Origin: a virus
Reading direction: 5' to 3' (one strand)
DNA length: 55,900 nt
Virus record (IMG/VR): IMGVR_UViG_3300047667_000954
Location: 1 to 55,900 of that record
Below the pieces are notes generated by a model that worked only from the letters and a program-made list of their open reading frames with translations, did no database searches and had not been told where the DNA came from. Made by a program: the position numbers and the translations under genes. Positions 3,391 to 39,293 of the stretch are shown here, piece by piece (position 1 is the first letter of the stretch; each line of letters begins with the position of its first letter).

Positions 3391-4188
3391 ATGACAGTCA
3401 TAAAAAATCACCGTGTAGACGGAGCAGCATATGTTGCATCACCAAATAAAAGTGGAAAAATTAATCCACTCTTTATTGTACAGCACTATACAGCAGGATA
3501 TTCAGCCAGCTCAGCAATTGATGTACTAACTCGCCGCGGCAGCAACGTAAGTGCGCATGTAACGGTTGACTTTGATGGTACAATAACACAACATGTACCA
3601 TTTAATGTCAAGGCATGGCATGCAGGCCCATCAGCACATATGGGATACACAGGCCTTAACAACTATTCAATTGGTATTGAAATTGTCAACATCGGTTGGT
3701 TGCGCCAATTAAGTAACGGATACTTGCAAGATGCATATGGTAATACAAAGAATGAAGACGATTTCCCACATGGAATTGTATATGCCCCATGTGTTAGAGC
3801 AGGAAGCGGTACGTTTGCATGGCCGCGATATACTCCAGAACAGTTATCCGCAGTGGACGATTTGACGGCAGCATTATGTCAAAAATATTCAATCATGGAC
3901 ATTGTATCTCATGAGGAGATTGACACACGCGGTTGGAAAACAGATCCAGGACCTGCATTTCCAATGCAGCTAGTAAAACGCCATCTAACCACTGACAGGG
4001 GCAATGATTTTGAGAAATGGGAAGTTACCGCAAGTTCACTTCGTGTACGATCAGGCCCAGGATCACAATATGAAACTGTCAGAAGTTTGGTCACAGGGCA
4101 GCAAGTGGAAGTTATCAATCGCAATAGTGAATGGGTACAAATTGATAATGACGGCTGGGTGCATGGCGGGTATCTACGTCGCGTTTGA
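3391..4188 (+). CDS. Endolysin: N-acetylmuramoyl-L-alanine amidase with SH3 domain
   Basis: A 265-residue protein with an Amidase_2 (PGRP-like) catalytic domain at about residues 20-195. His residues of the zinc site are visible in QHYTAGYS (about 31-38) and AWHAGPSAHMG (about 73-83), and a later DPGPAF segment follows the expected third-ligand region. Residues about 206-264 form a bacterial SH3-like cell-wall binding domain (LRVRSGPGS, WVQIDNDGWVHGGYL). It cleaves the amide bond between MurNAc and the stem peptide to lyse the host. There is no signal peptide, so release needs a holin, which was not found here. The ribosome-binding site is AGGGA. Confidence 0.93.
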   Translation: MTVIKNHRVDGAAYVASPNKSGKINPLFIVQHYTAGYSASSAIDVLTRRGSNVSAHVTVDFDGTITQHVPFNVKAWHAGPSAHMGYTGLNNYSIGIEIVNIGWLRQLSNGYLQDAYGNTKNEDDFPHGIVYAPCVRAGSGTFAWPRYTPEQLSAVDDLTAALCQKYSIMDIVSHEEIDTRGWKTDPGPAFPMQLVKRHLTTDRGNDFEKWEVTASSLRVRSGPGSQYETVRSLVTGQQVEVINRNSEWVQIDNDGWVHGGYLRRV

Positions 4189-4213
4189 CAATACTAGTGG
4201 CGTGTGCTAAATT
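4185..4213 (+). promoter_or_regulatory. Sigma70-type promoter overlapping a stop codon
   Basis: TTGACA (4185-4190), 17-nt spacer, TAAATT (4208-4213). The TGA of the endolysin stop lies inside the -35 box. Transcription would start at or next to the ATG at 4220, giving a leaderless or nearly leaderless mRNA. Confidence 0.5.
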
Positions 4214-4219
4214 AAAAGC

Positions 4220-4711
4220 ATGCCACTAGAACCAACCTTTTCTAATCTTACATACACATGCGAGCCAGAGAGCTTCTCCTGGACATCAGGTGGGATCTTT
4301 GCGAATAATCGTCAGGAATGGAAATGGAATGGTTTCCTACATAGTGTTGATGATCATCCAGCAGTAGTAATTGAAGAATTAGATGAGAAACAATGGTACA
4401 AACACGGGCAGCGACATCGGGCCGAGCATTTGGGACCAGCTTGGTCAAAAGGTACCCCGTATTGGGATGCGTATTATAATAGCGGAGTACTGCATCGAGT
4501 AAATGGCCCTGCTATGATAAATCCCCATGTTGAGAAATGGTATCAATTTAATGAGCGTCACAGAGCAGATGGCCCTGCAGTTGAACATGTGAATGGTACC
4601 AAAGAATGGTGGCTATCAGGCCGGCACTTTAATAAGTTAGACGACTGGTTAACATATAATAAAACTATATCAGATGATATGAAACTGATGATAAAAATAA
4701 CGTACGGTTGA
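4220..4711 (+). CDS. HRTDGPA-type modular repeat protein (YwqK/MORN_2-like), solitary copy
   Basis: A 163-residue protein of the same family as the twelve-gene array at 25.4-29.4 kb. It contains degenerate modules such as LHRVNGPA and RHRADGPAVEHVNGTKEW and the family C terminus (WLTYNKT...KLMIKITYG). Its length fits five 23-residue modules plus the constant ends. Pfam MORN_2/YwqK repeats are often annotated as toxin-antitoxin antitoxins, but there is no experimental function to transfer here. Its modules are more diverged than those of the array, so it may be an older copy. No ribosome-binding site is visible before the ATG. Confidence 0.8.
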   Translation: MPLEPTFSNLTYTCEPESFSWTSGGIFANNRQEWKWNGFLHSVDDHPAVVIEELDEKQWYKHGQRHRAEHLGPAWSKGTPYWDAYYNSGVLHRVNGPAMINPHVEKWYQFNERHRADGPAVEHVNGTKEWWLSGRHFNKLDDWLTYNKTISDDMKLMIKITYG

Positions 4712-5317: not shown

Positions 5318-5352
5318 GAGTAACGCATGGGCTGTCTGTCCATGCGTTACTC
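5318..5352. terminator. Perfect 13-bp inverted repeat after dsbA
   Basis: GAGTAACGCATGG (5318-5330) pairs with CCATGCGTTACTC (5340-5352) around a 9-nt loop. No T-run follows, so it may be a terminator of reduced efficiency, an RNA stability element or an operator. It sits between dsbA and the polymerase gene. Confidence 0.5.
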
Positions 5353-5450
5353 AACCTGCGGTAACACAATACCACTATATGCGAGTGATTAATAGTCTAA
5401 TGAAAGCATAATAATGACAATTAGGAGAAACTAAGATTTACGTTGACGCA

Positions 5451-8222
5451 ATGCACAATCGTGAAAACGATACAATTTATGTAGTAGAGCGTGATGCCGT
5501 CGGCACCCGCGTTTACACACAACACCCAGCACATTATGTATTCTACTACCCTGATAAAAAGGGCAAGTTTACTAGTATCTTTGGCGAGTCACTGGGGAGA
5601 TTTACAACAAATAGTGGTAAAGCATTTAATCAAGAGAAAAAATCATTTTACGGTAAGAAACTGTATGAAAGCGATGTTAATGCAGTATTTCGCTGTATCT
5701 CAGATCATTACCTTGATGCACCTGTACCAAAATTAAATATTGGCTTCTTCGACATTGAGGTTGACTTTGATAAGGAACTGGGGTTCGCACCACCTGATGA
5801 TCCGTTTAATATGATCACAGCGGTTGGTGTACACCTTAATTGGCTTGACAAAACAATTTGCCTTGTTATTAAACCAAAAGGTATGACTAAAGAAGAAGCC
5901 GTACAAACTGTGGGCGAATTTGATAGTGTTCTCCTCATGGATACTGAAGAAGAGCTGCTAAAAACATTCTTAGATTTAATTGAAGACACTGACATTCTTA
6001 GCGGATGGAACAGTGACAAGTTCGACATTCCGTATATTACAAACCGGATTGCGCGCGTGTTGGGCAAGGAATATACCAAACATCTTTGTTTATGGAATCA
6101 ATATCCCAAACGGCGCAAATATGAGGAATATGGTAAAGAACATGAAACGTTTGACTTGTCAGGCCGCGTCCACTTGGACTACATGCATCTCTACAAAAAA
6201 TACACCTATCATGAAATGCATAGCTATTCACTAAATGCCATCTCAGAGCAAGAGCTTGGTGATATGAAGATTGCATACGAAGGCACATTGGATCAGTTGT
6301 ATAATAATGACTTTAAAAAGTTTATTGAGTATAACATACAAGATACTGAGCTATTACGCAAGCTAGATGATAAATTACAATTTATTGATTTAAGCAATGT
6401 GTTGGCCCATGCTAACGGCGTGCTGTTACCTACTACAATGGGCGCTGTTGCCCAAACTGACCAGGCTATTGTCAACGAGGCGCATTCACGTGGACTTATT
6501 GTCCCTGATAAGGTGCGCGGGCAGGATCATACACGGGCAGCTGGTGCATATGTTGCCAGCCCTGTTAAAGGTATGCACAGGGATATTGGTAGCATCGACC
6601 TTAAGTCGCTATACCCATCAATTCTTCGTGCATGTAATATGAGCCCAGAGTGTATTATTGGGCAAGTCAGGCATACAATAACTGACCCAGAGATTGAAGA
6701 AGCCAAGAAAAAGTGGAAAGAAAACCCAATTGCAAAATACTGGGAAGGCAAGTTCTCCTGCAAAGAGTTTGATCTTGTAACAGAACGGGACCGTGAAACA
6801 GTATTAACACTTGATTTTGAAGATGGTAAAAGTTACACTGCAACCGGCTCAGAAGTCCATGATCTGGTATTTAACAATGGTAAACCTTGGTGTATTACCA
6901 GCAACGGTACAATCTTTACGTTTGAAAAGAAGGGCGTCATTCCTGGATTGCTGGCCCGCTGGTATGCAGAGCGCAAAATACTACAACGCCCTGCAGGCAT
7001 TTGGTATAAGCTGTATGAAGGCGAAGCTATTGACGACGGCGCGCTAGCAGATCTGGTTGGGGATGTCGATAGTGCAGAGTTTGCGATAGCCAATCACATT
7101 ACACACAATGGCGAAGGCTGGGTATGTACTGATAACGCATATGCAGCTATTGTCTTTGGATTTTGGGATAAGCGACAGCTGGTTAAAAAGATTAACCTTA
7201 ACTCGTTATATGGTGCGCTGCTTAACCCTGGTAGTAGATTCTTTGATCAGAGGCTCGGACAGAGCACGACACTAAATGGAAGAGGCATTGCTAGACATAT
7301 GTCTGCCGCAACTAATGAATCTATGTCTGGCGTATACGACCATACTGGAAAAGCAATTATCTATGGTGACACTGACTCTGTATATTTTAGTGCGTACCCA
7401 ATATATGCTGACCAAATTGCCAGTGGTGAATTCAAATGGGACAAGGATACAGTCATTGAACTTTATGACGCTGTTGGTGCGCAAGTAAATTCCACCTTTG
7501 CAGGATATATGGAAGAGGCACATAATTGTCCTGATCAGTATGGAAAAATTATTGCTGCTAACCGAGAAACTGTTAGTGAAAAGGGTATTTTTATTAGTAA
7601 GAAACGTTATGGACTATTGGTTTATGATGATGAAGGTACCCGTGTTGACACAGACGGCAAGCGTGGCAAGCTAAAAGTCATGGGACTTGAGATTAAACGA
7701 AGCGACACACCAGGTTACATGCAAGAGTTTCTAAAAGAAATACTAAGCAAAACACTTGAAGGCGCATCAGAGGCAGACATGATTGCACGTATCCTGGAAT
7801 TTCGCAGTGAGTTCAGGGACATGCCAGCCTGGGAAAAGGGAACACCAAAACGTGTTAACAATCTAACCAAATACACAAAAGAATGGAAAAGGACAGGCAA
7901 ATGTCGAGTAGGTCATGTGACGGCAGCAATTAACTACAATCGCCTGCGTGAACTACATAAAGACAAATATAGTTTGGAAATTGTTGATGGTATGAAAACT
8001 ATCGTATGCAAGCTAAAAAATAATCTTTTAGGTATGACAAGTATTGGTATCCCCACTGATGAAAAGCGTATTCCAGAGTGGTACAAGGAACTTCCGTTTG
8101 ATAATGAGTTAATGGAAGAAACAATTGTGACTAAGAAGATCAGTAACTTGCTTGGTACATTGTCCTGGGATCTTACCAGAGCTGAAAGTAGAACCACATT
8201 CAATACTTTGTTTGATTTTTAG
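5451..8222 (+). CDS. 43: DNA polymerase, family B (T4 gp43 type)
   Basis: A 923-residue replicative polymerase. The 3'-5' exonuclease domain has Exo I FFDIEVDFD (about residues 98-106), Exo II SGWNSDKFDIPY (about 185-196) and Exo III YNIQDTELL (about 288-296). The polymerase domain has motif A DLKSLYPSI (about 382-390), motif B NLNSLYGA (about 580-587) and motif C YGDTDSVY (about 638-645). All catalytic acidic residues are present. The first ATG lacks a ribosome-binding site. AGGAGA (5424-5429) instead sits 6 nt before an in-frame ATT at 5436, which would add the residues IYVDA. Translation may therefore begin at AUU, giving 928 residues. Confidence 0.97.
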   Translation: MHNRENDTIYVVERDAVGTRVYTQHPAHYVFYYPDKKGKFTSIFGESLGRFTTNSGKAFNQEKKSFYGKKLYESDVNAVFRCISDHYLDAPVPKLNIGFFDIEVDFDKELGFAPPDDPFNMITAVGVHLNWLDKTICLVIKPKGMTKEEAVQTVGEFDSVLLMDTEEELLKTFLDLIEDTDILSGWNSDKFDIPYITNRIARVLGKEYTKHLCLWNQYPKRRKYEEYGKEHETFDLSGRVHLDYMHLYKKYTYHEMHSYSLNAISEQELGDMKIAYEGTLDQLYNNDFKKFIEYNIQDTELLRKLDDKLQFIDLSNVLAHANGVLLPTTMGAVAQTDQAIVNEAHSRGLIVPDKVRGQDHTRAAGAYVASPVKGMHRDIGSIDLKSLYPSILRACNMSPECIIGQVRHTITDPEIEEAKKKWKENPIAKYWEGKFSCKEFDLVTERDRETVLTLDFEDGKSYTATGSEVHDLVFNNGKPWCITSNGTIFTFEKKGVIPGLLARWYAERKILQRPAGIWYKLYEGEAIDDGALADLVGDVDSAEFAIANHITHNGEGWVCTDNAYAAIVFGFWDKRQLVKKINLNSLYGALLNPGSRFFDQRLGQSTTLNGRGIARHMSAATNESMSGVYDHTGKAIIYGDTDSVYFSAYPIYADQIASGEFKWDKDTVIELYDAVGAQVNSTFAGYMEEAHNCPDQYGKIIAANRETVSEKGIFISKKRYGLLVYDDEGTRVDTDGKRGKLKVMGLEIKRSDTPGYMQEFLKEILSKTLEGASEADMIARILEFRSEFRDMPAWEKGTPKRVNNLTKYTKEWKRTGKCRVGHVTAAINYNRLRELHKDKYSLEIVDGMKTIVCKLKNNLLGMTSIGIPTDEKRIPEWYKELPFDNELMEETIVTKKISNLLGTLSWDLTRAESRTTFNTLFDF

Positions 8223-8230
8223 GAGGCATT

Positions 8231-8419
8231 ATGACAGCCACTGAAAATCAAACTACTCACACCTGGTCGTTTTGCACCCACTGTGATCACATGGTAGTGA
8301 TTTGCAGCAAGTGCGGTAATAATACATGCAATGCAGGATACGGCACAATAGACGGCGTTGACTGTGATGCATGTGAATCAGCATATACACTTTATTTTGG
8401 TAATGTCAACAACAAATGA
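8231..8419 (+). CDS. Small Cys-rich protein, probable zinc-binding
   Basis: A 62-residue protein with four Cys pairs or near-pairs: FCTHCDH, ICSKCGNNTC and DCDACES. The CxxC spacing suggests one or two zinc knuckles. The gene follows the polymerase by 8 nt with AGGAGGC as ribosome-binding site. Small zinc-ribbon proteins are common in T4-like phages with unknown roles. Its 3' end overlaps an ATG in the next reading frame. Confidence 0.7.
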   Translation: MTATENQTTHTWSFCTHCDHMVVICSKCGNNTCNAGYGTIDGVDCDACESAYTLYFGNVNNK

Positions 8420-8433
8420 TTTCTGGAGATAGC

Positions 8434-8664
8434 ATGAACCTTGATACTGCAATAAACAACGCATTAAAACAGCTGATCCACCGCCCTGAATACCGAGCAG
8501 GAATATGTAATTTCAACGACTGGTTGAAGGCTAACTATAAAATGCAAGTTCAACTTATTGGCCGTGATCAAGACCAAGTACGTTGGCCTGAGGGCTACAA
8601 ATGGGAAGTGGTGATGCTAGATGATGAAGGTCTTGCCACAATGTTCAAATTACAATATGGATAA
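8434..8664 (+). CDS. Hypothetical small protein ending in FKLQYG
   Basis: A 76-residue protein if started at 8434, which has TGGAGA 5 nt upstream. An in-frame ATG at 8416 lacks a site. It carries a helical N terminus (LDTAINNALKQLIH) and a C-terminal beta-rich half ending in TMFKLQYG, the same ending used by the modular repeat proteins and close to the FKL endings of two genes near 31.5 kb. Function is unknown. Confidence 0.7.
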   Translation: MNLDTAINNALKQLIHRPEYRAGICNFNDWLKANYKMQVQLIGRDQDQVRWPEGYKWEVVMLDDEGLATMFKLQYG

Positions 8665-16666: not shown

Positions 16667-16948
16667 ATGATAGATAAAGAATCAGTTAATTCCGTAGCAC
16701 ATTATTTTAAACATCCTTCAGATCCCCATACAATCACTGTGTCGCCTGCAGATAGATATTTACTACAGGACAATGGTTACACATTTGATCATCTGCATGA
16801 TGGTGTATATGAATGGTTTGTGACCGACGCCGGCTTCTCACCAGACTCTTTTGTTATTATCATTGGTAATGGGACGCAGCTGGTGGCCGACGTTACCTTT
16901 GTTAATGATGGTATTGTAATGGCAAAACTACATGGATATATTGACTGA
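16667..16948 (+). CDS. Hypothetical protein (93 aa)
   Basis: A soluble acidic protein with aromatic residues, starting just after three tandem -10 boxes and lacking an obvious ribosome-binding site. The C-terminal half looks beta-rich (FVIIIGNGTQLVADVTFVNDGIVMAKL). No family was recognised. It lies between the deformylase and queE. Confidence 0.7.
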   Translation: MIDKESVNSVAHYFKHPSDPHTITVSPADRYLLQDNGYTFDHLHDGVYEWFVTDAGFSPDSFVIIIGNGTQLVADVTFVNDGIVMAKLHGYID

Positions 16949-17016: not shown

Positions 17017-17925
17017 ATGTTCGGAACTAATGAAATTGTGGGGAAAAAGTATTTCAAAGATGCTGCCCTGGATCAAATGATGGTAACATCAATGTTTATG
17101 ACACTTCAAGGCGAAGGGCCATATCGCGGCGAGCCTGCATTCTTTATCAGACTTGCAAAGTGCAATCTGGACTGTCAATTCTGTGACACATTCTTTGACG
17201 ATGGCGACTGGTTAACATTTGACCAAATTGCGGAACGTATTGAAGAAACAATTGACAAGTTCTATGCAGACCAGGGCATGGACCGTCCTGTTTGGACTAA
17301 TCATACGGTTGGTGTACGTGGAGAATTTGCAGATGATGACATCCAAACTATCCGTAAGAAGATGGTGCTTGTAATGACTGGCGGCGAGCCCATGTTGCAA
17401 GATAATATTAATCCATTCCTCGCACGTATGCAGTCTATCTTTGCAAAGACACAGATTGAAAGCAATGGTACTCAAGCAACTGCAATTCCTGATAGTACAA
17501 CACTTGTATGCTCACCAAAGTGTCTGGAAAAGAAAAAGATTGCAGTGCGTTACTTGAAGCCACGTGTTGAAATCCTTGAACGTGCAGATTGTTTGAAGTT
17601 TGTTATGGAAGCCAATCCAGATAGCCCATATTCAGACATTCCAGACTGGGCGCATGAATGGGCCGAACAGACAGGCAAACAGGTATATATCAGTCCTATG
17701 AATGTGTATAACTCTGTACCACTGGAAAGCAAAAAGTTACGTTTAAATTCAAATAGCACAACACTTGCAGAGCGAAGCACAATTGACGAAGTGGTTAGCT
17801 TTTGGGAGCCTGAGCTACTAGATATGAAGGCAAATCAAATCAATCATGAGTATGCCGCGCAATTTTGTGTAAAGAACGGATTTATTCTTAATTTACAGAT
17901 TCATCTATATGCCTCACTTGCATAA
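17017..17925 (+). CDS. queE: 7-carboxy-7-deazaguanine synthase (radical SAM)
   Basis: A 302-residue radical-SAM protein of the QueE type. TLQGEGPYRG (about residues 29-38) is the family N-terminal signature, CNLDCQFC (about 49-56) binds the 4Fe-4S cluster, and TGGEP (about 120-124) binds SAM. QueE converts 6-carboxytetrahydropterin to 7-carboxy-7-deazaguanine using SAM and Mg2+. It is longer than many bacterial QueE proteins because of an insertion between the cluster motif and GGEP. SAM synthetase is encoded about 0.4 kb downstream. It follows folE, queD and dpdA on the same strand. Confidence 0.92.
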   Translation: MFGTNEIVGKKYFKDAALDQMMVTSMFMTLQGEGPYRGEPAFFIRLAKCNLDCQFCDTFFDDGDWLTFDQIAERIEETIDKFYADQGMDRPVWTNHTVGVRGEFADDDIQTIRKKMVLVMTGGEPMLQDNINPFLARMQSIFAKTQIESNGTQATAIPDSTTLVCSPKCLEKKKIAVRYLKPRVEILERADCLKFVMEANPDSPYSDIPDWAHEWAEQTGKQVYISPMNVYNSVPLESKKLRLNSNSTTLAERSTIDEVVSFWEPELLDMKANQINHEYAAQFCVKNGFILNLQIHLYASLA

Positions 17926-24834: not shown

Positions 24835-25122
24835 ATGACAAGCATTGCAAAAATTATCCAAACGCAAATCAAGCAACTTGATCCAATGTCTTTTTGGGCA
24901 TGGGGAACAACGGAATTGGTTGCGATGCCTGACGGCCTAAAGTTTAAAACTACAGGCGCAGTAAAGTGGAAGGGCTATGTGTATATCAAGTACGACGCAG
25001 GGCAAGACCTTTACAATCTTGATTTCTTCAAAATCCGCAAAATGGAAGTTGTATATACCGAACAGCTTGAGGGTGTTTTTGTTGAAGACTTGGTACGTTT
25101 GATTGACGAGGTAGTAGGCTAA
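24835..25122 (+). CDS. Conserved small phage protein (95 aa)
   Basis: A 95-residue protein with the layout of a widespread small phage family of unknown function: a helical start (IAKIIQTQIKQLDPMSFWAWGTTEL), a central beta hairpin (WKGYVYIKYDAGQDLYNLDFFKIRKM) and a C-terminal helix (VEDLVRLIDEVVG). It has its own copy of the duplicated promoter cassette. The stop overlaps the next start (TAATG). Confidence 0.75.
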   Translation: MTSIAKIIQTQIKQLDPMSFWAWGTTELVAMPDGLKFKTTGAVKWKGYVYIKYDAGQDLYNLDFFKIRKMEVVYTEQLEGVFVEDLVRLIDEVVG

Positions 25123-25428: not shown

Positions 25429-25461
25429 CATAAAGTTATGATGAGGCTGCAATATGGATAA
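25429..25461 (+). pseudogene. Remnant 3' end of a deleted array gene
   Basis: This fragment reads HKVMMRLQYG-stop, the constant C terminus of the array family, and overlaps the first array gene by the same 8 nt (ATGGATAA) as every internal junction. An in-frame TAG precedes it. It therefore looks like the tail of a lost upstream paralogue. Confidence 0.6.
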
Positions 25462-26077
25462 TCCAAAAATCGATGCATCAGGCAACAAGAGATGGTGGTC
25501 AAATGGCCATCTGCACAGAACAGATGGCCCTGCTATTGAACATGCAGATGGTGGGACGGAATGGCGGCTTGATGGCAATTTACATAGAACAGATGGGCCT
25601 GCTGTTGAATGGCCAAGTGGTACCAAGGAATGGTTTGTAAATAGTGTGCGACATAGAACAGATGGTCCTGCAACTGAACATGCAGATGGCACTAAGTCTT
25701 GGTTTCAAAATGGGGCACGCCACAGAACAGATGGCCCGGCTGTTGAACATGCAGATGGTGGGACGGAATGGCGGCTAAATGGCAATTTACATAGAACAGA
25801 TGGCCCTGCAATTGAATTTACAAATGGTTCGTATTTTTGGTACTTAGATAATAATCGCCATAGAACAGATGGACCTGCATGTATACATGCAGATGGTACG
25901 AAGTTTTGGTACGTGAATGGTCGGCGGCATAGAACAGATGGTCCTGCAACTGAATATCCAGATGGTAGGAAGTCTTGGTTTTTACATTCCAAAAAATATA
26001 CATTTGATGAATGGCTTGAAGTAAATACATACTTGACAGATGGCGAAAAAGTTATGATGAAGTTAACACATGGATAA
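25454..26077 (+). CDS. Array gene 1, HRTDGPA repeat protein with 7 modules
   Basis: A 207-residue member, the longest of the array. It starts MDNPKID and carries seven HRTDGPA modules, each 23 residues with a Trp-containing strand (EWRLDGNL, SWFQNGAR, FWYVNGRR). It ends with FDEWLEVN and KVMMKLTHG. The modules resemble YwqK/MORN_2 repeats, predicted to form a stack of beta hairpins. Two of its own modules are almost identical (around 25549-25610 and 25748-25802), indicating internal duplication. No signal peptide or catalytic site is visible. Function unknown; a binding or scaffold role is inferred from the repeat architecture. Confidence 0.85.
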   Translation: MDNPKIDASGNKRWWSNGHLHRTDGPAIEHADGGTEWRLDGNLHRTDGPAVEWPSGTKEWFVNSVRHRTDGPATEHADGTKSWFQNGARHRTDGPAVEHADGGTEWRLNGNLHRTDGPAIEFTNGSYFWYLDNNRHRTDGPACIHADGTKFWYVNGRRHRTDGPATEYPDGRKSWFLHSKKYTFDEWLEVNTYLTDGEKVMMKLTHG

Positions 26078-26555
26078 TCCAAGAATCAATAAAGCTGGCG
26101 ACAGGCATTGGTATTTAAATGCCAAACTGCACAGAACTGACGGACCTGCAGTTGAACATGTAAATGGTACCAAAGAATGGTGGCTATATGGTGGAATGCA
26201 TAGAACAGATGGCCCTGCTATTATAGATAGAAATGGTACCAAGGGATGGTACTTTAATAACAATCTGCACAGAACAGATGGGCCTGCTGTTGAATATGCA
26301 GATGGTACTAAGTCTTGGTTTCAAAATGGGCGCCGCCACAGAACAGATGGGCCAGCTATTGAATTTGCATCAGGTGACAAGGAGTGGATTATAAATGGGC
26401 AACGTCACAGAACAGATGGTGCTGCTATTGAATATGCAGATGGTCATAAGAAGTGGTATTTAAATAATCAGGAGTATACATTTGATCAATGGCTTGAAGT
26501 AAATACATACTTGACATATGAGCAAAAAGTTATTATGAAGTTGCAATATGGATAA
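26070..26555 (+). CDS. Array gene 2, HRTDGPA repeat protein with 5 modules
   Basis: A 161-residue member starting MDNPRIN, with five modules (the last reads HRTDGAA) and the end FDQWLEVN...KLQYG. It overlaps both neighbours by 8 nt. No ribosome-binding site stands out before the ATG, so termination-reinitiation from the upstream gene is likely. The first module's segment HVNGTKEWWLYG closely matches one in the solitary paralogue at 4.2 kb, showing shared ancestry. Confidence 0.85.
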   Translation: MDNPRINKAGDRHWYLNAKLHRTDGPAVEHVNGTKEWWLYGGMHRTDGPAIIDRNGTKGWYFNNNLHRTDGPAVEYADGTKSWFQNGRRHRTDGPAIEFASGDKEWIINGQRHRTDGAAIEYADGHKKWYLNNQEYTFDQWLEVNTYLTYEQKVIMKLQYG

Positions 26556-26889
26556 TCCAGAAATTGATCGCACAGGCACTAAGACTTGGTTTGGAAAATC
26601 TCACCTCATAACAAATGGTGCTGTTAAATACACAGATGGTACCAATACTTGGTGGTTAAATGGAGATCTGCATAAAACGGATGGGCCTGCTATTGATCGG
26701 GAAAATGGTCATAAGGAATGGTGGGTGCATGGCAAGCTGCATAGATCAGATGGTCCTGCTGTTGAATATGCAGATGGTCGCAAGAGTTGGTACTTTAATA
26801 ACCATATCTATACATTTGATCAATGGCTTAAAGAAAATACATACTTGACACATGAAGAAAAAGTTATTATGAAGCTGCAATATGGGTAA
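26548..26889 (+). CDS. Array gene 3, HRTDGPA repeat protein with 3 modules
   Basis: A 113-residue member. The first module is degenerate (SHLITNGAVKYTDGTNTWW) and lacks the HRTDGPA core. The other two read LHKTDGPA and LHRSDGPA. The constant end FDQWLKEN...KLQYG is intact. Overlaps both neighbours by 8 nt. Confidence 0.83.
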   Translation: MDNPEIDRTGTKTWFGKSHLITNGAVKYTDGTNTWWLNGDLHKTDGPAIDRENGHKEWWVHGKLHRSDGPAVEYADGRKSWYFNNHIYTFDQWLKENTYLTHEEKVIMKLQYG

Positions 26890-27094
26890 TCCACTAATTA
26901 GTAGTATAGGTACCAAGAGATGGGTGTTAAATCATCAGCTGCACAGAACAGATGGTCCCGCTGTTGAATGGTCAAATGGCCATGTACAATGGTTTTTAGA
27001 TGGTGAAGTGTTTTATACATTTGATCACTGGCTTGAAGAAAATACATACTTGACAGATGGTGAAAAAGTTATGATGAAGTTGCAGTATGGATAA
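26882..27094 (+). CDS. Array gene 4, single-module repeat protein
   Basis: A 70-residue member with one module (LHRTDGPAVEWSNGHVQWFL), showing the minimal architecture: start (MGNPLIS, where the array consensus is MDNP), one module, then FDHWLEEN...KLQYG. It defines the constant part of the family as about 47 residues. Coupled by 8-nt overlaps. Confidence 0.83.
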   Translation: MGNPLISSIGTKRWVLNHQLHRTDGPAVEWSNGHVQWFLDGEVFYTFDHWLEENTYLTDGEKVMMKLQYG

Positions 27095-27296
27095 TCCAGA
27101 AATTGATCGGTTTGGTAACAAGACTTGGTACTTAAATGGTCAGCGTCATAGAACAGATGGACCTGCTTGTGAATGGTCAGATGGCAGCAAGAGTTGGTAC
27201 CTGCATGATCACTTTTATCTATTTGATCAATGGCTTAAAGTAAATCCAGCCCTGACACATGAACAAAAAGTTATGATAAAGTTGCAATATGGATAA
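27087..27296 (+). CDS. Array gene 5, single-module repeat protein
   Basis: A 69-residue member with one module (RHRTDGPACEWSDGSKSW) between MDNPEID and FDQWLKVN...KLQYG. It has a Cys in the module (GPACEW), a variant also seen in genes 7 and 8. Coupled by 8-nt overlaps on both sides. Confidence 0.83.
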   Translation: MDNPEIDRFGNKTWYLNGQRHRTDGPACEWSDGSKSWYLHDHFYLFDQWLKVNPALTHEQKVMIKLQYG

Positions 27297-27570
27297 TCCA
27301 AAAATCGATCAGTTTGGTAACAAGAGATATTACGTAAATGGTGCACGGCATAGAACAGATGGGCCTGCTTTTGAGTTTGCATCAGGTACCAAGTCTTGGT
27401 GGTTAAATGATTGCAGGCACAGAACAGACGGACCTGCTGTTGAATATGCAGATGGTCGAACGGGTTGGTATTTAGATGGTGAAGTGTTTTTTACATTTGA
27501 TGAATGGCTAGATGAAAATTCATACTTGACACATGAGCAAAAAGTTATTATGAAGCTGCAATATGGATAA
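27289..27570 (+). CDS. Array gene 6, two-module repeat protein
   Basis: A 93-residue member with two modules (RHRTDGPAFEFASGTKSWW and RHRTDGPAVEYADGRTGWY) between MDNPKID and FDEWLDEN...KLQYG. It shares the GEVFxTFD segment before the end with gene 4, suggesting exchange of 3' portions between members. Coupled by 8-nt overlaps. Confidence 0.83.
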   Translation: MDNPKIDQFGNKRYYVNGARHRTDGPAFEFASGTKSWWLNDCRHRTDGPAVEYADGRTGWYLDGEVFFTFDEWLDENSYLTHEQKVIMKLQYG

Positions 27571-27841
27571 TCCAGAAATTGACGAAGATGGTAGTAAGTC
27601 TTGGTACTTAGATGGTCGCCTGCACAGGACAGATGGACCTGCTATTGAAAATGCAGATGGTAGTAAGACTTGGTGGTTAAATGGCTTTCTGCACAGAACA
27701 GATGGTGCTGCTTGTGAATGGTCAGATGGCGACCTGTGGTGGTACCTAAATGGCGAAAAGTATAAATTTGATGAATGGCTTGAAATAAATTCATACTTGA
27801 CACATGAGCAAAAAGTTATTATGAAGCTGCAATATGGATAA
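27563..27841 (+). CDS. Array gene 7, two-module repeat protein
   Basis: A 92-residue member with two modules (LHRTDGPAIENADGSKTWW, LHRTDGAACEWSDGDLWWY) between MDNPEIDEDGSK and FDEWLEINS...KLQYG. Its start and end are nearly the same as gene 8, so these two probably arose by a recent duplication. Coupled by 8-nt overlaps. Confidence 0.83.
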   Translation: MDNPEIDEDGSKSWYLDGRLHRTDGPAIENADGSKTWWLNGFLHRTDGAACEWSDGDLWWYLNGEKYKFDEWLEINSYLTHEQKVIMKLQYG

Positions 27842-28118
27842 TCCAGAAATTGATGAAGATGGTAGTAAGTTTTGGTGGGTTGGTCTACAACTGCACAGAA
27901 TAGACGGGCCTGCTATTGAATGGGCAGATGATGGCAAGGAGTGGTGGGTGAGTGGTATTCGGCACAGAACAGATGGGCCTGCTTGCGAATGGCCAGATGG
28001 CCGCGTAACTCAACGCTGGTACCTAAATGGCGAAAAGTATAAATTTGATGAATGGCTTGATGTAAATTCAGACTTGACACATGAACAAAAAGTTATGATG
28101 AAGTTGACACATGGATAA
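27834..28118 (+). CDS. Array gene 8, two-module repeat protein
   Basis: A 94-residue member with two modules (LHRIDGPAIEWADDGKEWW, RHRTDGPACEWPDGRVTQRWY); the second has a two-residue insertion relative to the 23-residue norm. The start MDNPEIDEDGSK matches gene 7, and the end is KLTHG as in gene 1. Coupled by 8-nt overlaps. Confidence 0.83.
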   Translation: MDNPEIDEDGSKFWWVGLQLHRIDGPAIEWADDGKEWWVSGIRHRTDGPACEWPDGRVTQRWYLNGEKYKFDEWLDVNSDLTHEQKVMMKLTHG

Positions 28119-28389
28119 TCCAAGAATTGATCTAACAGGCAACAAGAGATGGTGGTCAAATGGCAAGGTGCATAGAACAGATGGCCCTGCTATTGAATAT
28201 ACAGATGGTACTAAGTTTTGGGTTTTAAATGGCGATGTGCATAGAACAGACGGACCTGCTGTTGAATGGCCATCTGGCCATGTACAATGGTTTTTAAATA
28301 GGCAAGGGTATACATTTGATACATGGCTTGAAATGAATACAGATCTGACACATGAACAAAAAGTTATTATGAAGCTACAATATGGCTAA
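28111..28389 (+). CDS. Array gene 9, two-module repeat protein
   Basis: A 92-residue member with two modules (VHRTDGPAIEYTDGTKFWV, VHRTDGPAVEWPSGHVQWFL) between MDNPRIDLTGNKRWWSNG and FDTWLEMN...KLQYG. Its start segment matches gene 1 (GNKRWWSNG). Coupled by 8-nt overlaps. Confidence 0.83.
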   Translation: MDNPRIDLTGNKRWWSNGKVHRTDGPAIEYTDGTKFWVLNGDVHRTDGPAVEWPSGHVQWFLNRQGYTFDTWLEMNTDLTHEQKVIMKLQYG

Positions 28390-28741
28390 TATGCAACCAA
28401 CAATATCAATAGATGTACATGGCAACAAGAGATTCTGGGCAAATGGTCACCTGCACAGAACAGATGGGCCTGCAATCGAATATGCAGGTGGCGACAATTT
28501 TTGGTTGTTAAATGGAGATCTGCACAGAACAGATGGACCTGCTATTGAATATGCAGATGGTACTAAGTCTTGGTTTCAAAATGGGGCACGCCACAGAACA
28601 GATGGCCCTGCTGTTGAATATGCAAATGGGACCCCCATCTGGTTTTTAAATAATCAGAAGTATACATTTGATGAATGGCTGGACGCAAATTCAGACCTAA
28701 CACATGGTGAAAAAGTTATTATGAAGTTGCAGTATGGATAA
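28382..28741 (+). CDS. Array gene 10, three-module repeat protein
   Basis: A 119-residue member with three modules and an altered N terminus (MANMQPTISIDVHGNKRFW) in place of MDNPxID. It shares 47 identical bases with gene 1 across the SWFQNGARHRTDGPA region. Coupled by 8-nt overlaps, here ATGGCTAA rather than ATGGATAA. Confidence 0.83.
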   Translation: MANMQPTISIDVHGNKRFWANGHLHRTDGPAIEYAGGDNFWLLNGDLHRTDGPAIEYADGTKSWFQNGARHRTDGPAVEYANGTPIWFLNNQKYTFDEWLDANSDLTHGEKVIMKLQYG

Positions 28742-29081
28742 TCCAGAAATTGATAAATTAGGTACCAAGAGATGGCGGGTAAATGGTCGGTTGCATAGAA
28801 CAGATGGGCCTGCTGTTGAGTTTACATCAGGTACCAAGACTTGGTGGACAAATGGAGAGCTGCACAGAACAGATGGACCTGCACGTGAACATGCAGATGG
28901 AAGCTCCAGCTGGTGGTTGCATAATAGACACCATAGAACAGATGGACCTGCTATTGAATATGCAGATGGTCGCAAGAGTTGGTACATACACGGGCAAGAG
29001 TATTCAGTTGATGAATGGCTTGATGTAAATCCAGACTTGACACATGAACAAAAAGTTATGATGAAATTGCAATATGGATAA
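28734..29081 (+). CDS. Array gene 11, three-module repeat protein
   Basis: A 115-residue member with three modules (LHRTDGPAVEFTSGTKTWW, LHRTDGPAREHADGSSSWW, HHRTDGPAIEYADGRKSWY) between MDNPEIDKLGTKRWRVNG and VDEWLDVN...KLQYG. Coupled by 8-nt overlaps. Confidence 0.83.
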   Translation: MDNPEIDKLGTKRWRVNGRLHRTDGPAVEFTSGTKTWWTNGELHRTDGPAREHADGSSSWWLHNRHHRTDGPAIEYADGRKSWYIHGQEYSVDEWLDVNPDLTHEQKVMMKLQYG

Positions 29082-29352
29082 TCCAAGAATTGATAATATG
29101 GGCACCAAGAGATGGTGGGTAAATGGTAGACGGCATAGAACAGATGGTCCTGCTATTGAATATGCAGATGGTACAAAGTTGTGGTATATAAATGGTAAAC
29201 AGCACAGAACAGATGGGCCTGCTATTGAGTGGTGGGATGGCCAGATGGATTGGTATTTAAACGATCATATCTATTCATTTGATGACTGGCTGGATGCAAA
29301 TACAGACCTGACAGATGGTGAAAAAGTTATGATGAAGTTAAAATTTGCTTGA
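29074..29352 (+). CDS. Array gene 12, two-module repeat protein (last)
   Basis: A 92-residue member with two modules (RHRTDGPAIEYADGTKLWY, QHRTDGPAIEWWDGQMDWY). The constant end is altered to KVMMKLKFA, and instead of overlapping a further paralogue its TGA lies inside the -35 box of the next promoter. This marks the right boundary of the array. Confidence 0.83.
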   Translation: MDNPRIDNMGTKRWWVNGRRHRTDGPAIEYADGTKLWYINGKQHRTDGPAIEWWDGQMDWYLNDHIYSFDDWLDANTDLTDGEKVMMKLKFA

Positions 29353-31213: not shown

Positions 31214-31227
31214 ATATAGTGAATTAC

Positions 31228-31617
31228 ATGAACCATATATCATCTACACCACAGAAACCACATCACACATCTAGTGTTAGATTGAAAATGTGGGAAGAAA
31301 AATTTCCAGGATGTGGTGATGATTTTATAGAATTTTTAGATAGCAGGATGCCAACTATGGGAGTGATAGCCACATGGAAATCAGAGTGGATAGAAACGTC
31401 ACCTTATAGAATGACTATTATGTACAATGGTAGTATTGCAGCGTACCATGACACAGGTAAAAAATTATCGTTGCGTAAACAAGTTTCCAACGTAACAGAG
31501 CAAGCCAAAATACATCCATATTTTTGGGACCTAATCGGGCGGTGGCCATACCGGGATCGTTTTGAAGTGGTCTTTTTTAAGGAAGAACATCTCGTAATGT
31601 TTAAACTATCATGGTAG
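31228..31617 (+). CDS. Hypothetical protein ending in FKLSW (129 aa)
   Basis: A protein of about 129 residues; an in-frame GTG at 31219 would add three residues, and neither start has a ribosome-binding site. It shares a layout with the next gene: a WK..W.(D/E)TS segment, a helical middle and an ending of two strands closing in MFKLSW. The two are probably distant paralogues. No function is known. Confidence 0.65.
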   Translation: MNHISSTPQKPHHTSSVRLKMWEEKFPGCGDDFIEFLDSRMPTMGVIATWKSEWIETSPYRMTIMYNGSIAAYHDTGKKLSLRKQVSNVTEQAKIHPYFWDLIGRWPYRDRFEVVFFKEEHLVMFKLSW

Positions 31618-31916
31618 CGGCCCGTAAAACTAAAGAGCGGTACAGTAATGCGGCTCTCATGGATGTTTTTGGTTCAATTGGAGCCAGCCCAACTGCAATC
31701 GTAAGATGGAAACAACAATGGCGCGACACGTCAGGAAAAGTGGAGGTCAGTAGCTTTCATTCAGCCGTTGTTCTACTCAGACAGTATGAAATTGACCCGC
31801 TGTACTATCAGTTTATAAGTTATACTGACGGCATCATGAGTCCATCCTTACACTACATCGTCTTTTATAAGATGGAACATGAGGTTATATTTAAACTCAC
31901 TAGTGGTATTACTTGA
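31611..31916 (+). CDS. Hypothetical protein ending in FKLTSG (101 aa)
   Basis: A 101-residue protein overlapping the previous gene by 7 nt. It shares VRWKQQWRDTSG and the ending YIVFYKMEHEVIFKL with its neighbour's WKSEWIETS and FEVVFFKEEHLVMFKL. Its TGA is inside the -35 box of the following promoter. Function unknown. Confidence 0.65.
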   Translation: MVAARKTKERYSNAALMDVFGSIGASPTAIVRWKQQWRDTSGKVEVSSFHSAVVLLRQYEIDPLYYQFISYTDGIMSPSLHYIVFYKMEHEVIFKLTSGIT

Positions 31917-31941
31917 CAAGCAAGGAATAATACCATATTAT
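31913..31941 (+). promoter_or_regulatory. Sigma70-type promoter for the VWA-like protein
   Basis: TTGACA (31913-31918), 17-nt spacer, TATTAT (31936-31941). The stop of the preceding gene is in the -35 box. The next gene starts at 31968 with GAGGTATG as ribosome-binding site. Confidence 0.7.
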
Positions 31942-37976: not shown

Positions 37977-38623
37977 TCATAAATTGCGTAATCACCATAT
38001 CGGGCCAGGCTACGCGCAATAAGGTCTTGGTGCGCTGCATGATCCAAAATTCCCACAACACTTAATAAAATTTTAACACCAATTGGTTCTGTTGCGCCAT
38101 GCAGTGCGTCCACACTGTTAAATGCAAACGCGCGGCAATGCTCTGGTAATTGGATAGCAACTTGTTCACCTGTTGTCTTTTGCAAGTAGAAGGTGTTGCC
38201 CTCTGGTTCAGTTAGATAGAACATGTATCTGCGCGGCTCAAGAGGCATCGTCGGGTCTGGTGTATCAGTATGTGGCTCAATAGTTTTCAGCTGCTTGAGC
38301 ATACCCGCCGCCCCAATCTCAGTGAATGGCAACTGTGCAATAGCGCGAGCCAAATCAGGAAATTCTTCAGCAAACGATGGATTGAACGTGGTGGTTGCAT
38401 TATCGCGAGTGAGATTAGATTGATCTAACCAGTCCACATAAGGCTTGATTCGGTCCCATCGCGACGGAGTATGATTTGTCGCAGTTAGCGCCCATTCATG
38501 GCGCCCTTCTTTAAATACCCAAAAGTCAGGATCGTCAATCTTATTCGCATCAAACCAATCAATTACTTTTGATGGTGCAGGAATATCAAAGTCTATGTCA
38601 AGAGGAAGGTAAAGTAATGCCAT
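37973..38623 (-). CDS. Aspartyl/asparaginyl beta-hydroxylase-like 2-oxoglutarate oxygenase
   Basis: A 216-residue protein if started at 38623. PHTDTPDP (His118 and Asp120) supplies the HxD iron ligands, RRYMFYL follows at about 131-137, and DALHGATEP (His175) gives the distal His. The spacing and the RRY segment suit the aspartyl/asparaginyl beta-hydroxylase-like branch of Fe(II)/2-oxoglutarate dioxygenases. Target unknown. It diverges from the QueC-like gene with only 22 bp between start codons. Confidence 0.7.
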   Translation of the reverse strand: MALLYLPLDIDFDIPAPSKVIDWFDANKIDDPDFWVFKEGRHEWALTATNHTPSRWDRIKPYVDWLDQSNLTRDNATTTFNPSFAEEFPDLARAIAQLPFTEIGAAGMLKQLKTIEPHTDTPDPTMPLEPRRYMFYLTEPEGNTFYLQKTTGEQVAIQLPEHCRAFAFNSVDALHGATEPIGVKILLSVVGILDHAAHQDLIARSLARYGDYAIYD

Positions 38624-38632
38624 GTTGTATCC

Positions 38633-38640
38633 AATAAATA
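38633..38640 (+). promoter_or_regulatory. Possible late promoter (AATAAATA) between divergent genes
   Basis: AATAAATA lies in the 22-bp gap between two divergent genes, only 6 nt before the QueC-like start at 38646. That is very close, so it may instead serve an earlier start or be chance. Confidence 0.25.
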
Positions 38641-38645
38641 ATGCT

Positions 38646-39293
38646 ATGCACAACTTCCATATTCCTGAACAGTATCAATCTATCGCAGTCTTATTCAGCG
38701 GAGGCATGGATAGCACCTTGTTATTATACTTAGCTGGGTTACGCTACCCACATCGTCGGATAATTGCAGTCACAGCGGGTTGCAGCTACATAAACAACCG
38801 TGTACATCTTGAGTGGGCGAATAAAGCGTTTGCGCAAACTATTAAGCGGTTACCGCCTGGTGCAATTGATTACCATATTACCCATTACCATGATGACAGA
38901 GAAACCCACCACTGCAATCAAGCTATGGTTGAATTAAAGGATTTGGCTGATGTCTGGTTAATTGGACAAAACGCTTCGCCACCACAAGGTGCTGTTGTTT
39001 GTGATCACATAGGGAAAGAAGTTGATCTGTATGACGCATGTCCACTACCGCACAGACGCGCCAGAGATCATTCTGAATGGGCAGAGCAACATGGCTTACC
39101 TGTATATCGACCATTAGCCAATATTGACAAACAAGACGAAGTTCGTATGTTTAAAGAGTTGAAAGTGTTTGACTTAATCCAAAGCACTCGCTCGTGTCCA
39201 GGCCAATGGGCTGATCAAGAACTTATCGACTTTGTGCCCCATTGCGGGTATTGCTGGTGGTGCCTTGAACGCCAGTGGGGCTTGATGGTGTGA
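38646..39293 (+). CDS. PP-loop ATPase, QueC-like
   Basis: A 215-residue adenine-nucleotide alpha hydrolase (PP-loop) protein. AVLFSGGMDSTLLL (about residues 14-27) is the ATP-pyrophosphatase motif. The C terminus has SCPGQ (about 184-188) and HCGYCWWCLER (about 201-211), the C...CxxCxxC zinc site typical of QueC, which turns 7-carboxy-7-deazaguanine into preQ0. The internal YVPGRN-type segment of bacterial QueC was not seen, so the assignment is tentative. It is the only plus-strand gene in this part of the cluster. ATG 38622 is an alternative start. Confidence 0.7.
   Translation: MHNFHIPEQYQSIAVLFSGGMDSTLLLYLAGLRYPHRRIIAVTAGCSYINNRVHLEWANKAFAQTIKRLPPGAIDYHITHYHDDRETHHCNQAMVELKDLADVWLIGQNASPPQGAVVCDHIGKEVDLYDACPLPHRRARDHSEWAEQHGLPVYRPLANIDKQDEVRMFKELKVFDLIQSTRSCPGQWADQELIDFVPHCGYCWWCLERQWGLMV

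Follow-up and report, generated by a model that had tools for sequence, protein, structure and literature searches.

A tandem array of twelve genes for predicted MORN-like repeat proteins in a probable jumbo phage: a candidate repertoire of binding proteins

Three kinds of described system come closest to the locus considered here. MORN and MORN_2 proteins (MORN1, junctophilin, MORN4; PF07661) are built of repeated short beta-hairpins with a 23-residue period; homogeneous polyimmunity loci hold tandem paralogues for small, probably cytoplasmic binding proteins that vary from strain to strain (PMC3482391); and jumbo phages G and 121Q carry tandem gene amplifications of more than 30 similar genes (PMC5646251). 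Each of these is already known, and likenesses to all three are found in IMG/VR virus record IMGVR_UViG_3300047667_000954, whose 55,900 bases were analysed whole (the window). Twelve genes for modular-repeat proteins stand there head to tail at 25454-29352 (+). The array may be a repertoire of interchangeable, translationally coupled MORN-type binding proteins, likely acting on variable host-side targets, a tentative reading held at a little under even confidence.

All twelve genes are intact open reading frames, and each of the 11 junctions is an overlap of exactly 8 bases, where the stop codon of one gene falls within the start of the gene that follows (mostly ATGGATAA; ATGGGTAA and ATGGCTAA once each), in keeping with the original prediction of twelve paralogues in an operon-like run of phage DNA. 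The proteins have an N-terminal cap (N-cap; MDNPxIDxxGxKxWxxNGxx), 1-7 copies per gene of a 23-residue module (HRTDGPAxExxDGxxxWxxNGxx) and a conserved 26-residue C-terminal cap (C-cap; YTFDEWLxxNxxLTxEEKVMMKLQYG). The predicted variation in module number is evident: gene 1 (25454-26077, 207 residues) has 7 modules, gene 2 (26070-26555, 161 residues) 5, and gene 3 (26548-26889, 113 residues) 2 and one degenerate; genes 4 (26882-27094, 70 residues) and 5 (27087-27296, 69 residues) have one each. Two modules are present in genes 6 (27289-27570, 93 residues), 7 (27563-27841, 92 residues), 8 (27834-28118, 94 residues) and 9 (28111-28389, 92 residues), three in genes 10 (28382-28741, 119 residues) and 11 (28734-29081, 115 residues), and two again in gene 12 (29074-29352, 92 residues), whose tail is altered to KLKFA. 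Of the 32 modules in the array, 29 are exactly 23 residues long, two have 24 residues and one has 25. Both ends had been described as constant, which fits the C-terminal end (84% mean DNA identity over the 12 genes) better than the N-terminal end (64%). A scan of the whole window for a 17-base module DNA motif found 25 occurrences, all within the array; its reversed control had no match in the window.

The predicted extent of 25429-29352 is correct at its end; its start needs correction, as the first start codon lies at 25454 and is preceded by noncoding bases. These bases, at 25430-25453 (+), resemble a junction, with 20 of 24 bases identical to the consensus of the 11 junctions; the resemblance is unique in the window, where no other site outside the array reaches 18 matches to this 24-base consensus. 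They are what remains of a C-cap 3' end, and they supply the ribosome-binding site of gene 1, with a Shine-Dalgarno-like GAGG. In most genes a Shine-Dalgarno-like GAAG lies within C-cap codons, 7 bases ahead of the next ATG, a spacing found in 10 of the 12 array genes. Because of the stop-in-start overlaps and this placement of GAAG, ribosomes should pass from one gene to the next, and would travel the array as one coupled run.

Structure prediction, proposed as a check on the locus, returned a repeat fold. The AlphaFold (AF2) model of gene 11 has a predicted local distance difference test score (pLDDT) of 95.4 and shows short strand pairs, repeated along the chain, with two helices at the C-terminus; that of gene 1 is of moderate confidence (pLDDT 87.8). 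Foldseek comparison of both models with the Protein Data Bank (PDB) gave MORN1, junctophilin and radial-spoke MORN proteins as the top matches, with best E-values of 7.8e-3 (gene 11) and 2.8e-7 (gene 1) and TM-scores of 0.3-0.45 for the top matches; a fold search of a viral library returned many uncharacterised phage and giant-virus proteins. The profile search proposed with it went the other way: no match to MORN_2 at the curated cut-off was obtained among six window proteins (Pfam), nor any to YwqK or antitoxin models (NCBIfam) among the window proteins tested. Only DUF6745 (PF20530) rose above cut-off, weakly and over a short stretch, in three window proteins (5.1e-9 for gene 1); the best stretches span about 16-29 of 206 model positions, far from full length. 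One sister array protein (3650-4339 of locus L090) exceeds the MORN_2 cut-off, at 32.9 against 29.6 bits. Sequence searches found no relatives of solved structure, the lone match (E 0.25) being taken as chance. Because of the PDB matches, the short DUF6745 stretch and the sister MORN_2 match, the array proteins are predicted to have a MORN-like fold, with consecutive beta-hairpins in a solenoid, and the window proteins would be a divergent sequence branch of it. The MORN_2/YwqK-like repeats of the original prediction are thus recognisable in the predicted fold and in one sister protein, not in the sequences of the window proteins. Each protein would be a solenoid of 23-residue modules, sharing an HRxDGPA-E-G-W scaffold interspersed with variable positions, and closed by the two-helix C-cap.

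Selection distinguishes the scaffold from the rest of the module. Among 29 window modules the ratio of nonsynonymous to synonymous differences (pN/pS), calculated throughout from uncorrected proportions that are partly saturated, is 0.15 at scaffold columns versus 0.98 at other columns; the array modules of locus L025 give 0.20 and 0.80. These values support purifying selection on scaffold positions and an absence of constraint on the remaining ones. Codons 19-26, which end the C-cap, have a pN/pS of 0.22, and the tail is therefore maintained as protein, beyond its role in ribosome binding. In neutral simulation the 12 frames were all open in 0 of 300 runs, even at 0.05 substitutions per site.

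Comparison of related phages, one of the checks proposed, showed that they differ in numbers of array genes and of modules. Two records, G009 and G010, which are apparently one virus in two samples, have core genes collinear with those of the window, many of them 65-80% identical in amino acid sequence. In G009 the interval flanked by orthologues of the genes at 25122 and 29432 contains 3 array genes (with 1, 1, and 3 modules), against 12 in the window. A dispersed thirteenth homologue in the window (4220-4711, +; 163 residues) has divergent modules and a related C-cap, and its orthologues in G009, G010, and G011 mark another variable site: on the 3' side there are 3 more array genes with 8-base overlaps in G009/G010, 1 array gene in G011 and none in the window. 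G009 carries 2 further array genes at a third site, and record G003 has a 10-gene array with the identical 8-base overlap, beside large genes on the opposite strand.

DNA similarity is about equal for modules of one gene (0.669), modules of different genes (0.674) and window modules compared with those of L025 (0.669). More direct evidence of exchange comes from L027 and L030, loci of related strains with flanks 84-89% identical: the L027 gene at 5348-5698 is chimeric, its 5' end resembling one L030 gene and its 3' part the next, and it is the product of in-register recombination between paralogues. Modules therefore recombine, and the description of the array as a reservoir of sequence variation gains substance from this chimera. 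An assembly artefact, the alternative named beforehand, is argued against by sister arrays that are 99.98-100% identical across metagenomes (L131/L132/L137 and L027/L028/L029), since near-identical contigs from different samples hold identical arrays.

From the 365 stretches confirmed by an IMG/VR profile scan, the best 80 were used. Comparable arrays are found in many contigs of large phages; the loci kept have as many as 11 module genes in a row, and many repeat one junction length (-8, -19, -26, -7, -4, +3, or +43 bases); constant tails are lineage-specific, including EQIIMWKLLQ, YWRVVKLKALW, EEEFNKRLTLSQ, DPKDQFWWKMKS and others. This pattern suggests that tandem expansion happened repeatedly in separate lineages. 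Two further records are extreme expansions of the HRxDGPA repeat family: G020 (128,541 bases, locus L131), with 158 repeat matches and open frames of up to 762 residues, and G013 (402,383 bases, locus L140), with 105 repeat matches. No relatives were found in bacterial genome contigs, which were scanned by the C-cap pattern only, so that HRxDGPA proteins lay outside the reach of the scan.

The genes beside the arrays bear on what the proteins might contact. The window array ends 495 bases ahead of a MoxR gene and 2.6 kb ahead of a VWA gene, and in a 735 kb phage (LR756501; locus L040, 1595-4417) a two-module protein is encoded between VWA-metallopeptidase and MoxR genes, overlapping MoxR by 11 bases; a module gene also lies near MoxR in Wroclawvirus MIJ3, L095, and L112, and near MoxR or VWA in the clade of the window. 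A role in virion assembly has been proposed for the MoxR-vWA pair (PMC7824862), and the arrays of G003 and L026 adjoin structural genes. The module proteins might on these grounds be virion or assembly scaffolds, as head or tail decoration or as MoxR-VWA adaptors, with the copies serving as dosage or length variants. That account is unlikely: MoxR is missing from 11 of the 23 array-bearing records and, among the matches listed, is distant from the module genes in most of the others; no conserved structural neighbour appears among the families listed for array-adjoining genes; and gene and module numbers vary widely among related phages, which would be unusual for a structural part. The same distribution of MoxR led to rejection of a MoxR/VWA partnership as a general explanation, and MoxR used as a seed for further syntenic loci gave no match. 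Nor did the 73 array-adjoining proteins reveal a conserved partner, as no family matched more than 2 of them among the matches listed, the sole two-member family being two ankyrin proteins. The genes that adjoin arrays at several loci include members of homing endonuclease, transposase, and ankyrin-repeat families.

A short repeat and a constant junction ease tandem duplication, so the arrays could have grown by recombination around one generic job, for example chaperone-like or regulatory, with copy number setting dosage and module differences meaning little. Near-constant junctions within arrays agree with this, as do the tandem arrays of phages G and 121Q (PMC5646251) and a pN/pS near 1, not above it, at variable positions. 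Dosage predicts recent, near-identical copies, whereas the modules share only about 67% DNA identity and every frame is open, and the account is rather unlikely. Reading the proteins as YwqK-type antitoxins or immunity proteins, each neutralising a defined toxin of its own or a rival phage, would draw on the MORN-like predicted fold, the MORN_2 match in a sister array and the occurrence of immunity genes in tandem polyimmunity loci (PMC3482391). It fares worst, and is improbable: besides the negative NCBIfam result, no toxin family was found among the window array neighbours tested or in the families listed for the neighbours of other arrays, and none of these neighbours was a YwqJ-type deaminase, whose adjacency would mark a YwqK antitoxin.

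For the repertoire of interchangeable binding proteins, the computation supports the anatomy, the class of fold, purifying selection that keeps the frames and the tail, variation in copy number, and recombination; that the genes are translationally coupled, that the proteins bind, and what kind of target they have, we infer. Homologous recombination of modules and caps in a 23-codon register would add, remove and fuse genes and modules, and related phages would for this reason hold different sets. The proteins most likely work by binding, with the scaffold kept and the other positions free to vary, and the common C-cap would close the fold or dock a shared partner. Since no conserved partner gene is seen among the listed neighbours of the arrays, a fixed piece of phage machinery is an improbable target. 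The most economical guess, drawn from the analogy with polyimmunity loci (PMC3482391), is a variable protein on the host side, for example a toxin or an effector of a defence system; the role would perhaps be counter-defence or antitoxin-like, and the locus would act as a phage-borne homogeneous polyimmunity locus.

Several observations weigh against this reading. A pN/pS near 1 denotes relaxed constraint, not positive selection, and saturation distorts it. As regards the anti-defence decoys that the original prediction put forward as a possibility, none of 30 array proteins matched a defence model in PADLOC-DB, which models defence proteins and not their inhibitors, and no antitoxin model in NCBIfam was matched by the window proteins tested. 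MORN proteins serve also as scaffolds and membrane anchors, beyond binding variable partners, and the arrays adjoining structural genes make a virion or assembly role possible.

The phage itself is probably represented by a fragment of a jumbo-type myovirus. This assignment is based on gene content (PolB, a MoxR AAA+ protein, a DUF2201 metallopeptidase-VWA protein), on PolB, whose nearest named relatives are those of jumbo phages Phosso, Atu_ph07, and GAP32, on gene order partly common to the window and Wroclawvirus MIJ3, and on the MoxR-vWA pair, known from jumbo phages of group 2.2 (PMC7824862). The window further encodes S-adenosylmethionine synthetase, thymidylate synthase, thymidine kinase, peptide deformylase, QueC (38622-39293) and a radical-SAM protein of QueE type (17017-17925), which occupies the place of QueE in a relative; the phage may produce 7-deazaguanine derivatives, possibly for DNA modification.

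A strong sigma-70-like site (TTGACA-17-TATTAT, 31913-31941) stands directly ahead of the VWA gene. Promoter-like consensus sites in the window show no excess over shuffles, and no claim of early expression is therefore made. An array-like tail (M-x-K-L in the last 14 residues) occurs on unrelated small proteins of the window (8416-8664, 31219-31617, and 16667-16948) and on otherwise unrelated small proteins in L071, L072, and L077. The motif, picked only after being noticed, is present in 11 of 317 non-module open reading frames, from about 8 distinct families, against 0.9 expected from protein interiors; it may be a C-terminal element common to this phage group.

Compared with the known systems, the array differs from MORN_2 proteins in its HRxDGPA signature, two-helix C-cap and tandem phage organisation, with window sequences that fall below the profile; from DUF6745 it differs in carrying a repeated fragment of a 206-position domain, the short part that matches modules in three window proteins, and no full-length copy. 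HRxDGPA proteins of Atu_ph07, Celeribacter P12053L, Wroclawvirus MIJ3, and mimiviruses have the same repeat and fold; in the cultured phages examined, unlike in the window, such genes are single or few and dispersed, without a constant-junction array or this C-cap. Phages G and 121Q were not among the tblastn matches to the array repeat. Recombining MORN-type arrays across many phages are not described in the literature searched, outside which most subscription journals lie; some phage records carry more than 100 repeat matches, yet their function and arrays are undescribed there.

The array is a clear viral case of repeat-protein diversification through recombination. If its members bind different host factors, it would be a natural library for finding such factors, with one scaffold and one cap throughout, variable positions that are already known, and sister strains a single recombination event apart. 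Polyimmunity loci are bacterial, use SUKH and Imm folds and have known or predicted toxin targets; the window shares their gene architecture in its 12 tandem paralogues without intervening toxin genes, variable in relatives. A broader proposal, that many unrelated jumbo phages independently keep recombining MORN-type arrays as a modular counter-defence repertoire, in which a fixed C-terminal cap docks one partner common to all and an interchangeable solenoid, re-assorted in 23-residue register, selects the target, is rather doubtful; if true, such a repertoire would be to phages what polyimmunity loci are to bacteria, and would offer a new general route to anti-defence specificity.

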